Source: Xanthobacteraceae bacterium (GTDB lineage Bacteria; Pseudomonadota; Alphaproteobacteria; Rhizobiales; Xanthobacteraceae). Taken from it: DNA of 64,000 bases. The position numbers and the translations under genes were made by a program. The DNA lies in assembly GCA_019635635.1 (NCBI GenBank), contig JAHBZB010000003.1, positions 248,001-312,000 on the forward strand, given 5' to 3'. The notes below the pieces were generated by a model, which saw nothing but the letters and a program-made list of their open reading frames with translations, did not search any database and was not told the origin of the DNA. Shown here one piece after another: positions 3,780 to 39,597 of this stretch. Within the stretch, counting starts at the first letter, position 1. Each line of letters opens with the position of its first letter.

Positions 3780-4954
3780 CGCGGCAACAGTCCCCGGACG
3801 GTTTTCGCGGCTTTCCAGAGCACCGGCGTCGTTTTCACGAAGCGCTTGAGGCTCGCCTGCGCGCGCAGGAGTGGTGCGAGTGCGTGGCCTTTCGGCGAAA
3901 GCGGGATGAAGCTGTCGAACAGCTCTTCCTTCTCGTCGCAATAGACGAACTTGTATTCCGCTTCGCCAACGCCGAGGTCCATGATCGCGAAGCCGCGGTC
4001 GGCGACGTTCGGCACGATATGCGACAGCGTGATGATGCCGGGGCTCCAGCGCGAATTTTCGCTCGCGGTGTAGGAACTGATCATGGTCGAGAGGCGCTTG
4101 CCGTCCGTGACGCCGGCATAAAGCGCGAGCACTTCGCTTTCGCATTCGAGCGCGTGGATTTCGAGCGCGCCTGCGTCCGCGGCCGCGCGCAGGAAGGCTT
4201 CGACTTCCGGCTCGTCGAACGGATTGGGAATTTTCATCATCGCCATATAGGCGCGCTTCTGCACGAAGAAGGCGTCCATGCAGCGCCGCACTTCATCCGG
4301 CGTCGAGGCGACGAAGTAACGGTAGCCCGGAAGCTTCGCGAGTTTCTTTTCCTTGCCGCGAATGCGGCCGCGGTAGCTTGTGGTGAGCTGGCGCGAAAGC
4401 ACCGCTTCGCCGCTCTCGCCGAGTTTCAGGCGGTAGCCGAGGCTCGGTGAGGGCTGATGCGGAAACGCAAGCAGCGGGTTTTCCGCGCCGTGCCAGGAAT
4501 AGGGCTGGTTGTGCAACTCAAGCGCGGCAAGTTCGGGCTCGGCCTTGGCAAGGGCATCGAGAAGCTGCTGCACGAATGCGCGCGGGAAAGACATACCGCG
4601 CCGCCAGAGTCCGAAATTATAGTTCGCATGTTTGCCCGCGAGAAAGCGCGCGACCGGGAAGGGGCCATGCGAGAATTTCCCGAGCGGCAGCAGGCAAAGC
4701 GGCTCGCCGTCTTCGCCGAAGACGGCGACGAGCAACGGTTCGACGCCTTCCTTCGCGCCGATATGTTCCTGCCAGAGATTCAGAAAATCGAATCGCTGAT
4801 ACGGCGTGAGGTCGGCGCCGGCCTCGAACGCGCGCCAGAGCGGCGCAATATTCGCGAAATCACGGAAGATTTCAAAACGGGTGAAGGCAGGAGCGCCGCC
4901 GGTAACAGCGGTCTCGTCCCACGCGGATGTGTTTTTTTCGACGCGCTTAAGCAC
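3776..4954 (-). CDS. GNAT-family acetyltransferase (FemAB/CelD-like, Acetyltransf_6)
   Basis: About 392 residues when started at GTG 4954 (VLKRVEKN); the frame stays open to a TTG at 5056, so the start is uncertain. The C-terminal half carries the Acetyltransf_6 pattern seen in CelD-like proteins of exopolysaccharide loci: YRGRIRGKEKKLAKLPG, then FFVQKRAYM, then the acceptor-loop region FAIMDLGVGEAEYKF. Members are thought to acylate polysaccharide precursors or lipid-linked sugars in the cytoplasm. The gene converges on the GumC-like gene with a 4-base tail overlap and is divergent from the polysaccharide deacetylase at 5072. This context supports a role in polymer decoration. Substrate unknown. 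Confidence 0.78.
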   Translation of the reverse strand: MLKRVEKNTSAWDETAVTGGAPAFTRFEIFRDFANIAPLWRAFEAGADLTPYQRFDFLNLWQEHIGAKEGVEPLLVAVFGEDGEPLCLLPLGKFSHGPFPVARFLAGKHANYNFGLWRRGMSFPRAFVQQLLDALAKAEPELAALELHNQPYSWHGAENPLLAFPHQPSPSLGYRLKLGESGEAVLSRQLTTSYRGRIRGKEKKLAKLPGYRYFVASTPDEVRRCMDAFFVQKRAYMAMMKIPNPFDEPEVEAFLRAAADAGALEIHALECESEVLALYAGVTDGKRLSTMISSYTASENSRWSPGIITLSHIVPNVADRGFAIMDLGVGEAEYKFVYCDEKEELFDSFIPLSPKGHALAPLLRAQASLKRFVKTTPVLWKAAKTVRGLLPR

Positions 4955-34882: not shown

Positions 34883-34960
34883 GGGACGTCTCCTTTGGTC
34901 GGCAACGTGCGGCGACAAAAGATGTTCCTTGCCCGGTGGCTTTGTCCGCTGGCGCACGTA

Positions 34961-35599
34961 TCACCAGCGCAGCAGGCGCGATCCGATCGTCGCGCCGGCA
35001 AGCACCACGATTCCGATTGCGATCGGATACCAGGCCGCCACAAAGAGCGGGCTGTCGTTATTGCAGTTCAGCGCATAGAAGGTCGCCGCGATCCCGCCGG
35101 CAGCGAGACCGGCAATGGCACCGGCGAGCGTGGGCTGCGTCGGCGCGCCATAGCGGAGTGCCGCGAGCGCGGCGGCGAGCGGCAGGAGCGACAGCGCCGG
35201 GATGACCGTCAGGCAGAGGAAACGGTTCGTGCCTTTCAGGCTTGCGGCCCATTCGTTCGAGGGCAGCGCGACGAGTTCGGCCGCGACGCCCGTCAGAAGC
35301 AGCAGTACCGGTACACCAGCAACGAGCAGCCAGGAGCCGAATTTCGCGCCCGGCCTGCCTGCGCGCAGGAACAAGCCTGCCGCGGCGACCGCGACCAGCG
35401 CAACCACTGCGATCTTCAGCACGAAGCGCGGCGTTGCGATTGCCGCGTAGAAATCCTGACGCAGCCCGAAGAACGGGATGAAGAACACGAGCGTCGCCGC
35501 GACCGCGGCGGCGAGCGCAAGCAGGCCCGCTGGGCCGAATTGCGCGCGGCTATGCTCTGCGTCGGCCGCGAGCGCGCGAACCAGATCGTCCGTTTTCAT
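34961..35599 (-). CDS. nrsF: NrsF-type (DUF1109) membrane anti-sigma factor
   Basis: 212 residues with a short cytoplasmic start and six membrane helices, the NrsF/DUF1109 layout. Two cysteines, Cys129 (NRFLCLTV) and Cys179 (YALNCNND), are 50 residues apart. This matches, as I recall, the Cys131/Cys181 pair needed for signal sensing in Caulobacter NrsF. In that system NrsF holds SigF inactive until heavy metals or oxidants modify the cysteines. The ATG overlaps the sigma gene stop by one base (TAATG), so partner proteins are made together. The divergent bufferin operon is the probable target. Confidence 0.88.
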   Translation of the reverse strand: MKTDDLVRALAADAEHSRAQFGPAGLLALAAAVAATLVFFIPFFGLRQDFYAAIATPRFVLKIAVVALVAVAAAGLFLRAGRPGAKFGSWLLVAGVPVLLLLTGVAAELVALPSNEWAASLKGTNRFLCLTVIPALSLLPLAAALAALRYGAPTQPTLAGAIAGLAAGGIAATFYALNCNNDSPLFVAAWYPIAIGIVVLAGATIGSRLLRW

Positions 35600-36156
35600 T
35601 ATTCCTGTTCCTTTCGCATTCCGGCCGCGAGTTTTTTCAGTGCACGATGCAATGCGACGCGTACCGCACCTTCGTTCATGCCGAGACGCATCGCGGCGTC
35701 GCGCATCGAATGGCCCTCGATCGAAACCGTGCGAACGATCGCCCGGTCGCGTTCGGGGAGCAGCGCGAGCGCGCGTTCGATGTCCTGACTCGCGCAAGGT
35801 TCTTCCGCCGTCTCGGCGGGCAGTTCCTGGCTCAAGCCGTCGATCTCGATTTCCGCGCGCCGCGTGCGGCGGCGCAGCGCGTCGATCAGCTTGTTTCGCA
35901 CGATCGCGTTGACCCAGGGACCAAGCGGATCTTCCTTCCGCCAGGTGTGACGCTTCAGGTGTATTGCGATCAGGGTTTCCTGCACCGCATCCTCAACTTC
36001 CGAGAGCGGCGCGGAAAAACGGCGGCACGCGCGCATGGCGGTCGCGCGGATCACCGGCGTCAGCAATTCGAGCAGCCGGCGATATGCGCCGGCATTTCCG
36101 TCAACCGCGGCGATCATCAGCGTCGTCCATTCGAGTTCGCGCTCGGGACTTCTCAC
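35599..36156 (-). CDS. sigF: ECF sigma factor (SigF-like, partner of NrsF)
   Basis: 185 residues from GTG 36156, preceded by GAGGAG at 5 bases. Region 2 reads ELLTPVIRATAMRACRRF and EDAVQETLIAIHLKRHTW, with DALRRRTRR following. Region 4 has ALALLPERDRAIVRTVSIEG, SMRDAAMRLGMNEGAVRVAL and HRALKKLAAGM. It belongs to the ECF group paired with DUF1109 anti-sigmas. It would direct RNA polymerase to GTAACG/CGAA-type promoters such as the one before bufA. The open frame upstream of the GTG lies in the promoter region and has no support. Confidence 0.9.
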   Translation of the reverse strand: MRSPERELEWTTLMIAAVDGNAGAYRRLLELLTPVIRATAMRACRRFSAPLSEVEDAVQETLIAIHLKRHTWRKEDPLGPWVNAIVRNKLIDALRRRTRRAEIEIDGLSQELPAETAEEPCASQDIERALALLPERDRAIVRTVSIEGHSMRDAAMRLGMNEGAVRVALHRALKKLAAGMRKEQE

Positions 36157-36172
36157 GAATTCTCCTCGCAGA

Positions 36173-36198
36173 TACGCACGGCCGCAGGACTTCGTTAC
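36173..36198 (-). promoter_or_regulatory. Putative ECF promoter of the sigF-nrsF operon
   Basis: On the minus strand GTAACG is followed after exactly 16 bases by CGTA, close to the SigF pattern GTAACC-N16-CGAA known from Caulobacter. It is only 17 bases from the GTG start, so the leader would be very short and the start of transcription would fall near the ribosome binding site. This weakens the call. Confidence 0.45.
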
Positions 36199-36263
36199 AT
36201 ACCGATTTGGCGGAAGGTGCCAGCGTGAAGGCGGCATCCCGTGCTCACAGCTTCGTGAGGGCA

Positions 36264-36289
36264 GTAACGAAGCAGCCCCGCCCGGCGAA
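36264..36289 (+). promoter_or_regulatory. Putative SigF-dependent promoter of the bufferin operon
   Basis: GTAACG (36264-36269), 16 bases, CGAA (36286-36289), 47 bases before the bufA ATG. The -10 part is identical to the Caulobacter SigF consensus and the -35 part differs in one base. An inverted repeat CTCAC-N6-GTGAG (36244-36259) lies just upstream. Confidence 0.65.
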
Positions 36290-36336
36290 TAGCTTTCGTA
36301 GGCGCGATCAACGCGCACCAAATGGGAGCTATCACG

Positions 36337-36633
36337 ATGACCAATACCGCGATGAAACTCGCAATCGCAGGGTCGCTGGCCGCGGCTTTGACGGCGGTTT
36401 CCCTTCCGGCAAAAGCGCAGGACGCTTCGAAGGAGAAGTGCTTCGGCGTCGCACTGAAGGGCAAAAACGACTGCAAGGCGGGCGCGGGCACGACCTGTGC
36501 CGGAACCTCCAAGGTCGATTATCAGGGCAATGCGTGGTCGCTGGTGCCGAAAGGTACCTGCGTCTCGATGATGCTGCCCGGCAACCGCAAGGGTTCGCTT
36601 AAGGAACTGATGCGCGACGTTCCGAAGACCTGA
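36337..36633 (+). CDS. bufA1: Bufferin precursor peptide (BufA1, DUF2282)
   Basis: 98 residues from ATG 36337, which has GGGAG at 8 bases. A Sec signal peptide ([23 protein letters not shown]) is followed by a core with four cysteines: Cys35 (EKCFGVAL), Cys46 (NDCKAG), Cys54 (TTCAGTS) and Cys75 (KGTC). This is the BufA1/DUF2282 pattern. Bufferins are ribosomally made peptides whose core cysteines are oxidised by the BufB-BufC enzyme and which then sequester copper in the periplasm. That role is known for relatives and inferred here. First gene of the bufABC-DoxX operon. Confidence 0.9.
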
Positions 36634-36701
36634 TCACAACTTGCCGCGCCGGGGCCGCAGCCGCGGCGCGGTAATTCATTCAGAGATGATCGGAGGTTTG
36701 C

Positions 36702-37601
36702 ATGTTGCATCATGCGAGCGCGCGGTGTGCTGCCGGCATTCCGGATCGCGCAGGCGTCGGGCTCAAGCCGGAACACTATCGGGAGATTCTCGAGCAGAAT
36801 CCCGATGTCGGTTACTTCGAAGTTCACGCCGAGAATTACATGGGCGCGGGTGGACCACCGCACGCTTATCTCGAGGTGATCCGCAAACGCTATCCGCTGT
36901 CGCTGCACGGCGTCGGGCTTTCGATCGGCGCTGCCGGGCCGCTCGACCGCGCGCATCTCTCGCGGCTGAAAGCGCTGAACGAGCGCTACGAGCCGGGGCT
37001 GTTTTCGGAGCATCTTGCGTGGTCGACGCATGAATCCGAATTTTTCAACGACCTGCTGCCGGTGCCCTATACGCAGGAAACGCTCGACATCGTTTGCCGC
37101 CATATCGACGAGGTACAGACAACGCTTCGCCGGCAGATGCTGCTCGAGAACCCATCGGTCTATGTGCTGTTCGAGGAAAGCGAGATTCCGGAAACCGAAT
37201 TTCTCGCGCTGATCGCCGCGCGCACGGGCTGCGGGCTTCTGCTCGACGTCAATAACGTCGAGGTATCGGCGAACAACGCGGGATATGACGCCGCGAAATA
37301 CATCGACAGCTTTCCGGTCGAACATGTCGGTGAGATTCATCTCGCCGGAAACGCAGTCGCGGAAGGCGAGGGTGAGCGGCTCCTGATCGACGCGCATGGC
37401 TCGCCGGTCGAGGATTCGGTCTGGGGTCTTTATCGGGGGGCGCTTTCGCGCACCGGTCCGGTGCCGACGCTGATCGAGTGGGACAACGACGTGCCGTCCT
37501 GGCCGCGCCTGCTCGGCGAAGCGCAGAAGGCGGAAGCCGAGCTTTCGAGATCGGCGCGGCAGCGAAACCGCACGCCTGCGCGTGCCACGGCGCTGGCATG
37601 A
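36702..37601 (+). CDS. bufB: MNIO-family (DUF692) peptide-modifying oxidase BufB
   Basis: 299 residues, TIM-barrel DUF692 fold; GGAGG stands 6 bases before the ATG. Likely iron ligands or active-site residues are seen at His69 (SLHGVGLS), His104 (FSEHLAW), Glu149 (LLENPS), Asp182 (LLDVNN), His213 (GEIHLAG), Asp230 and His232 (IDAHGSPV), and Glu259 (LIEWDND). MNIO enzymes use two or three iron ions and oxygen to turn cysteines of a precursor into oxazolone/thioamide or thiooxazole groups. Its partner is BufC, which overlaps it by 4 bases. Confidence 0.92.
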
Positions 37602-38365
37602 GCACGCTCGGCGAAATGCAGCAGGCCTTCGCGCGCGCGCTGTCCGATCCCGAGGCGGCGATACCGGCGGGCTTGGGCGGCCGTCGTGCCGCGCAGGCGC
37701 AGCGGCGCTTTGCGATTTATCGCAACAACGTGACGGCAAGCCTGATCGACGCCTTGCAGGAATCTTTCCCGGTGACGGCTGCGCTGGTCGGCGAGGAATT
37801 TTTCCGGGCAATGGCCCGCGAATTCGTGCGGTGCGAGCGGCCGCGTTCGCAGGTACTGCTTTGCTATGGCGACACCTTTCCGGATTTCATCGCCGCTTTC
37901 GAACCAGCGCAGGCCTTGCCCTATCTTGCAGATGTCGCGCGGATCGAGGCGGCATGGATCGCTACCTATCACGCGGCCGATGCGGAGCCGCTCGGTCCCG
38001 CTGCGCTGGCGGCGCTCGGCGCGGACGCCGGTGCGGCGCGCGTGAAGTTGTTGCCGTCGGTACGGCTTGTCGTTTCGCAGTTTCCGGCAGGTTCGATCTG
38101 GCTCGCGCATCAGGCAGAGCACGCCGGCGAAGCCGGCGAAGGGCCGGAGACGGTTCTCGTGGTCCGGCCCGCGATGGAGGTCACGCTTCGCGTAATGCGC
38201 GGCGCCGAAGGCGTATTCGCAACCGCGCTTTATCGCGGCGGCAGTATCGAGGAAGCCGCTGCCGCGGCGCTCGGGGCGGACGGGTCTTTCGATCCGGGAA
38301 CCGCACTGGTTTCGCTTTTGACACAGGGCGCGGTGCTCGCGTTCGAGATGGAGAACGATCGATGA
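37598..38365 (+). CDS. bufC: MNIO partner protein BufC (DUF2063)
   Basis: 255 residues. The N-terminal DUF2063 domain shows [40 protein letters not shown] and [14 protein letters not shown], the helical fold that binds the DUF692 enzyme and presents the precursor. The C-terminal part is beta-rich with a winged-helix-like end. No catalytic motif is visible. Start and stop overlap bufB and the DoxX gene (ATGA), giving translational coupling. Confidence 0.88.
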
Positions 38366-38838
38366 CGACGATAACCCAACGGACAACGGCAACCGTATTC
38401 GATTTCGCCACAGGCGCGCGATCGGTCGCGCTGCTGCTGCTGCGAATCTCTCTTGCGCTGCCGTTCTATTTTTCAGGACTTACGAAGTGGGACGGATTTC
38501 TGCGTCTTTCCGATAACGCGATCTATCTCTTCACCAACGAGTTCAAGCTTCACCTGTTCGGCCGCATGATCGATTTTCCGTTTCCCGCGGCATCGGCGCT
38601 CGCCTCGGCGATTTCCGAAATCGTGGTACCGGTTCTGCTGGTACTGGGTCTCGGCACGCGGTTTGCGGCTTTCGCGGCGCTCGGAATGACGGCCGTCATC
38701 CAGCTCGTCGTGCCGGATGGCTGGGTAAATTATCATCTTCCTTGGGCGGCGATGGCGCTTTCCATTCTTCTGTTCGGGCCGGGCGGGTTGTCGCTCGATG
38801 CGCTGATCCGCCGGGCCGCGGCAAAGAGCCAGGAATAA
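38362..38838 (+). CDS. DoxX family membrane protein
   Basis: 158 residues with four membrane helices. The DoxX pattern is seen in LLLRISLALPFYFSGLTKW, VVPVLLVLGLGTRFAAFAAL and LGMTAVIQLVVPDGW. DoxX-like proteins often end bufferin operons and may supply quinone-linked redox chemistry for disulfide or peptide maturation. That is an inference. It starts inside the bufC stop and is the last gene before a strong terminator. Confidence 0.87.
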   Translation: MTTITQRTTATVFDFATGARSVALLLLRISLALPFYFSGLTKWDGFLRLSDNAIYLFTNEFKLHLFGRMIDFPFPAASALASAISEIVVPVLLVLGLGTRFAAFAALGMTAVIQLVVPDGWVNYHLPWAAMALSILLFGPGGLSLDALIRRAAAKSQE

Positions 38839-38854
38839 GCGGCTGCAAATAAAA

Positions 38855-38884
38855 ACGGCGACGCGTGAATGCGCCGCCGTTTCC
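38855..38884. terminator. Bidirectional terminator between the bufferin operon and an FMN reductase gene
   Basis: AAACGGCG (38855-38862) pairs with CGCCGTTT (38877-38884), and an inner CGC/GCG continues the stem. Leftwards it is followed by a T-rich run (TTTTTATTTG as read on the minus strand), so it best serves the FMN reductase gene, and more weakly the bufferin operon. Confidence 0.7.
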
Positions 38885-38902
38885 TTTGCCGGATTCCGGA
38901 AT

Positions 38903-39469
38903 CTATTTCCGCATCGGTTTTAGCGCTTCGGCCCAGCGGACGAGTTCGTCGAGGAGCTTGGTCGAACCCTCCTTGACGGGATCGGTCGGCGCAAACACGT
39001 CGTCCTTGCCGATCATGCTGTTGAAGTTTGGCACGGGCACGCCTTCGGTGAGCGGCACCATCTTCAGCGTGGTGAGAATGAGTTTCAGCGACTGCGCAGC
39101 GCGCAGGCCGCCGGAAATGCCGCCGTAGCTGACGAGCCCGGCGGGCTTGTAGTTCCATTCCGCGAAAACGTAATTCAGCGCGTTCACGAGCGCCGGCGGC
39201 GCGAAGTAATTGTATTCCGGATGCACGAAGACGAAGGCGTCGGCGGACTTGATTTTCGCCGACCAACGCTTGGTATGGTCGTGTTCGTACTGGCCGGTCG
39301 CGGGATGCTTCGGCTCATCATAAACCGGAAACTTGAAGTCGGCGATGTCGACGAGTTCGACGTCGAATTTGCCATGCTGTTTCGCGAACTCAGCGAACCA
39401 TTTCGCCACGATCGGGCCGCGGCGGGTAGGCCGCGTGCTGCCGATAATCACCTGAAGTTTGAGCGCCAA
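38903..39469 (-). CDS. NADPH-dependent FMN reductase family protein
   Basis: 188 residues from TTG 39469, chosen because AAGGAG stands 6 bases before it and the family begins there (LKLQVIIGSTRPTRRG). The flavodoxin-like fold is seen in IIGSTRPTR (phosphate loop), FVFVHPEYNYFAPPALVNAL and GLVSYGGISGGLRAAQ. Relatives reduce FMN, quinones, azo dyes or chromate with NAD(P)H. Lying next to the metal-stress operon is suggestive, but it has its own transcript. Confidence 0.85.
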   Translation of the reverse strand: MALKLQVIIGSTRPTRRGPIVAKWFAEFAKQHGKFDVELVDIADFKFPVYDEPKHPATGQYEHDHTKRWSAKIKSADAFVFVHPEYNYFAPPALVNALNYVFAEWNYKPAGLVSYGGISGGLRAAQSLKLILTTLKMVPLTEGVPVPNFNSMIGKDDVFAPTDPVKEGSTKLLDELVRWAEALKPMRK

Positions 39470-39597
39470 TTTTTTCTCCTTGCGGGACGGACGTAAAGCC
39501 ATGCCGTCGGTAAACGGCTTACGGCGGAGATAGTTCAGCAAGGCAAGCGCGCCTAAGCCAGCGCAGTTCGCGCAAGGCAACTACGCAAAAAACAACG

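Follow-up and report, generated by a model that had tools for sequence, protein, structure and literature searches.

Organization of the bufferin locus

The stretch of DNA analysed here, 64,000 nucleotides in all (the window), carries four intact open reading frames on its forward strand at 36337-38838, namely bufA1, bufB, bufC and doxX, with ATGA overlaps joining bufB to bufC (37598-37601) and bufC to doxX (38362-38365). A first-pass annotation had read these genes as a complete bufferin operon whose known relatives are copper-sequestering RiPPs. Its coordinates, the four cysteines of the precursor and both overlaps were confirmed on re-reading the sequence, and family models fit all four proteins, in agreement with the bufferin assignment. 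However, the operon was not complete as described: the divergent genes for an ECF sigma factor and an NrsF anti-sigma factor had been missed, as had both promoters. The boundaries of the unit are thus corrected from a four-gene operon to a six-gene cassette with its own switch.

The order bufA-bufB-bufC-doxX and the common direction of the genes are kept in 75/81 loci (a set chosen by BufB similarity, window included), which excludes chance as the source of the arrangement; doxX is absent from some of these loci. Directly 3′ of doxX we found a strong hairpin at 38854..38883 (+ strand; −17.2 kcal/mol for 38846-38890, z = −2.95), which has a weak T tail, was not flagged by a simple terminator scan and is the probable transcript end. 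No sigma-70 promoters were found in the operon region.

The sigma gene (35599..36156, − strand) encodes a 185-AA SigF/EcfF-like factor of the ECF16 type (NF009165, 235.9 bits, cut-off 198), with a GTG start preceded by a GAGGAGAA ribosome site. It is divergent from bufA, both genes starting out of one intergenic region, and overlaps by one base with the gene for the 212-AA NrsF/DUF1109 anti-sigma factor (34961..35599, − strand; PF06532, E = 1e-52). The window NrsF has just two cysteines, C129 and C179; in Bradyrhizobium OsrA, a functional cysteine pair bears these numbers too (PMC3420878).

Bufferin precursor, maturation proteins and DoxX

The bufA1 gene (36337..36633, + strand) encodes a 98-AA precursor that fits PF10048 (DUF2282) with E = 2e-24 and 85.7 bits against a cut-off of 22.4. 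Inspection of its N-terminus revealed a Sec-type signal peptide, with K7, a hydrophobic stretch at 8-23 and AKA at 25-27 followed by Q; cleavage after residue 27 is likely. All four cysteines (35, 46, 54 and 75) are located in the core and are conserved in 88/88 aligned precursors (those of related loci and of the window; the first cysteine served as alignment anchor and the other three were free), 85 of which have exactly four. Membership in the BufA2/Buf2 group was rejected, as the score for NF050166 was 21.8 bits vs. a cut-off of 60 and the precursor has four cysteines, not six. Characterized Buf1 binds Cu(I)/Cu(II), and of its cysteines the central two are modified while the outer ones are joined in a disulphide (PMC12452194). 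The modification is a 5-thiooxazole, which absorbs near 305 nm and costs 4 Da per cysteine (PMC13097082). Homology predicts thiooxazoles at C46 and C54 of the window precursor, a C35-C75 disulphide and copper bound in the periplasm. Two of the three points listed as open in the first-pass annotation, the modified cysteines and the bound metal, are largely answered for the family (PMC12452194). Tandem bufA genes were seen in loci L041, L060, L069, L071, L073, L077, L049 and L011; except in L049, one of the copies is shortened in the loop that links cysteines two and three (AGxHxC for AGxGTTC).

The 299-AA MNIO maturase BufB (36702..37601, + strand) matches PF05114 (E = 2e-105) and the NCBIfam model MNIO_BufB (NF050167; 388.6 bits, cut-off 310). 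It retains all residues invariant across 81 relatives, among them H69, H104, E149, D182, H213, D230, H232, E259 and D261 (81/81 each); among the invariant residues, His, Asp and Glu positions can be aligned with 3BWW, an MNIO of solved structure. Judged by motif position, D261 appears to match D249, the proposed catalytic base of FonB (PMC13097082). The partner protein BufC (255 AA; 37598..38365, + strand) has a DUF2063 domain at residues 6-98 (PF09836, E = 4e-28) and a conserved C-terminal half (99-255), with R37, R42, N44, E117, P153 and R190 invariant in 41 sequences. The HvfC model matches BufC below its cut-off. No RRE model matched the protein and neither sequence nor profile comparison gave a relevant solved structure, which leaves its RRE half putative. 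An MNIO together with a DUF2063-type partner also produces 5-thiooxazoles on the cysteine-containing precursor of the fontiphorin/oxazolin system (EGKCG captophorins; PMC13097082), but that precursor is of the repeat type, whereas the window precursor is a four-cysteine DUF2282 domain.

The last gene of the operon, doxX (38362..38838, + strand; PF07681, E = 1e-14, 55.4 bits), encodes a 158-AA membrane protein devoid of cysteines. Across 51 DoxX sequences the invariant residues are S38, E86, G96, R100, W128, G139 and G141, with no His or Met among them. The predicted model of the protein has a pLDDT of 93.8.

Divergent promoters of the ECF16 type

Two matches to GTAACG-N16-CGWA occur in the 64 kb, both of them in the gap between bufA and the sigma gene. 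The bufA promoter (GTAACG-N16-CGAA; 36264..36289) is the sole + strand match and the sigma-gene promoter (GTAACG-N16-CGTA; 36173..36198) the sole − strand match; the motif of the latter predicts autoregulation of the sigma gene. Both fit the pattern of ECF16 targets, for which the consensus tGTAACc-N16-CGAA was reported (PMC3420878). The sigF-like and nrsF-like genes and the divergent ECF16-type promoters belong to the bufferin unit.

Searching across loci with the pattern GTAACn-N15-17-CGn, we found the motif upstream of bufA in 40/45 loci with a sigma gene vs. 12/35 without one, where resampling predicts 1.4 and 1.6, respectively (expectations taken from shuffled/resampled upstream sequences). 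This enrichment in sigma-bearing loci ties the regulator to the bufferin operon across the group, and is the strongest new evidence of the analysis. In loci of the divergent type the motif precedes bufA in 28/30 cases, with a spacer of 16 in 26 of the 28, and the sigma gene in 22/30. A scan of the window's own genome for GTAACG-N14-17-CGWA gave 51 matches vs. 75 for a reversed-pattern control, and with matches at control level the scan does not reveal a regulon. Four sulfite-oxidase-type (molybdopterin oxidoreductase) loci of this genome showed no convincing motif upstream, and no msrP target of the sigma factor was found in it.

Presence and absence of the cassette in relatives

In the sister genome G002 the six genes are absent and nothing else is: positions 34914 and 38904 of the window are joined there by 49 nt, the flanks being 91-94% identical to those of the window (locus L124, G002:C2:97000-113000, compared with window 34915-38903). 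This cassette-free genome offers a natural control for the Buf1 cassette. In G003, a congener at greater distance, all six genes of the cassette occupy this site; the DNA has diverged (73%), but the frames of bufA, bufB, the sigma gene and nrsF are intact. That G000 and G003 share the site of the cassette points to an ancestral presence followed by loss, with gain as the alternative. No direct repeats of at least 9 bases, which would be a sign of a mobile element, were found at the cassette ends. A DUF2282 gene occurs in 24/61 relatives and in 2/8 genomes of the genus, and with so few holders in the genus the cassette is dispensable. A gene for an NADPH-dependent FMN reductase-like protein (38903-39580, − strand) adjoins the cassette; full-length close copies of it were seen in 2/7 congeners, G002 and G006. 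Elsewhere in the window, ARAGORN reported a 95-nt tRNA-Val(aac) at 3934-4028 that has no Rfam support and is probably a false positive.

Proposed function and alternative explanations

The same set of genes is known from Caulobacter crescentus, where CC3254-CC3257 (CCNA_03362-03366) with nrsF-sigF encode DUF1109, ECF sigma, DUF2282, DUF692/MNIO, DUF2063 and DoxX proteins as found here (PMC3511200, PMC8224329), and NrsF likewise has two conserved cysteines. The bufferin genes of that cluster are sigF-dependent (PMC3511200); it was copper-induced in all conditions tested, and insertion into sigF made the cells copper-sensitive (PMC8224329). In Caulobacter, a further bufferin-like operon is present and the regulon includes msrPQ as a target, whereas DUF2282, MNIO and NrsF genes occur once each in the window genome. 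The window cassette is a further example of the system described from Caulobacter and does not define a novel type. With it, a Buf1 cassette that is complete, present once and self-regulated is placed in a Hyphomicrobiales bacterium of small genome size. In a Betaproteobacterium, Cupriavidus metallidurans, the comparable gigPABT-rpoQ-rsqA genes are copper- and gold-induced (PMC10304878).

By analogy with these systems, the six genes very probably constitute a self-regulated Buf1-type bufferin cassette with a copper-buffering function. In such a scheme NrsF would tether the ECF sigma factor to the inner membrane and let it go when C129/C179 perceive copper or a similar stress that acts on thiols, as shown in relatives. 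The freed sigma factor would then fire both of the divergent promoters, whose motif is known from comparison. As in Caulobacter Buf1 and its relatives, BufB and BufC would oxidise C46 and C54 of BufA1 to 5-thiooxazoles, with 4 H lost from each, and the peptide would exit by Sec, acquire the C35-C75 disulphide and buffer periplasmic copper. For DoxX we speculate on a probable auxiliary redox function in the membrane, linked to quinones and outside peptide maturation itself.

An unlikely though not negligible alternative is that, with the same machinery, the main signal and role are not copper but oxidative stress, HOCl stress or a different soft metal (Au, Ag, Cd). The Bradyrhizobium EcfF-OsrA and Brucella BcrS-AbcS pairs are of the sigma/anti-sigma type found here, with sensor cysteines 129/179 in common, and the EcfF-OsrA promoters share the GTAAC core. 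Since such ECF16 pairs answer H2O2 and singlet oxygen in Bradyrhizobium (PMC3420878) or HOCl in Brucella (PMC8315932), an oxidant stimulus keeps some probability, and responses to chromate and Cd by ECF16/NrsF-type pairs (PMC3511200) and to gold by gig operons (PMC5413113, PMC10304878) point the same way for metals. Yet the reported targets of the two oxidant systems include oxidant-induced methionine sulfoxide repair genes, methionine sulfoxide reductases among them, and name no bufferin genes (PMC3420878, PMC8315932), and the molybdopterin oxidoreductase loci of the window genome had no clear motif upstream. It is copper, moreover, that induces the matching Caulobacter cluster and to which loss of sigF sensitises the cells.

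Less probable still is a main effector role for DoxX in place of the peptide, by oxidation of Cu(I) into the quinol pool. This was proposed for GigT, thought to pass electrons to the quinone pool (PMC10304878). The DoxX model weakly resembles the membrane part of the quinol-using vitamin K-dependent carboxylase (Z 9.4, rmsd 3.0, 123 aligned), but Foldseek gave no match at E ≤ 0.001 (E > 1) and Z values below 13 for helical bundles may reflect shared helix arrangement alone, as may apply also to NACHO/TMEM35A, the top match of the second comparison (Z 10.9, rmsd 4.0, 119 aligned). The resemblances are too weak for a functional claim and are compatible with the quinone-pool idea for GigT, no more. 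The lack of cysteines in the window DoxX, the lack of His or Met among the invariant residues and the absence of doxX from some loci argue further against DoxX as the main effector. Least credible of all is decay or lack of expression of the operon in the window genome, as might be read from its patchy presence in congeners and relatives: all six frames are intact, the conserved catalytic and cysteine positions and both promoters are retained, and the frames that we followed in G003 stayed open in spite of the divergence of the DNA. Copper buffering by a peptide under its own sigma switch is the reading that we prefer.

Two types of NrsF linked to bufferin loci

Among NrsF proteins of bufferin loci, Cys occupies the second sensor position in 28/29 loci of the divergent type and His in 13/13 loci with nrsF downstream of the operon. 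The lone divergent exception (L042) has His, and in the NrsF tree it falls on the His side. Cys and His types form the two sides of this tree (support 100/100) with a long branch between them; the alignment is ungapped at the sensor site but spans that branch, which calls for caution. In the promoters, GTAAC is mostly followed by G or A in loci of the divergent (Cys) type and by C in those of the downstream (His) type. No description of this split was found in the literature examined, and together with the promoter change it is the sole, mildly new point of the analysis.

We tentatively suggest, on the basis of these alignments, that alphaproteobacterial bufferin operons may be run by two sister NrsF types, and that the Cys/His exchange might fit a metal-ligand site better than a redox disulphide. 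One type would be the upstream divergent NrsF with Cys179 and mostly G/A after GTAAC, the other the NrsF 3′ of doxX with His and C, a division which we offer as a possibility with odds below even. A metal-ligand sensor site would, if true, mean direct copper sensing. Both a redox mechanism and metal binding by thiols have been put forward, and the split gives a direct handle on how copper is sensed. NrsF genes 3′ of doxX, with His for Cys179 and mostly GTAACC, were seen in L010, L014, L021, L023, L027 and L029, and further such loci are L031, L033, L039, L050, L052, L056 and L075.
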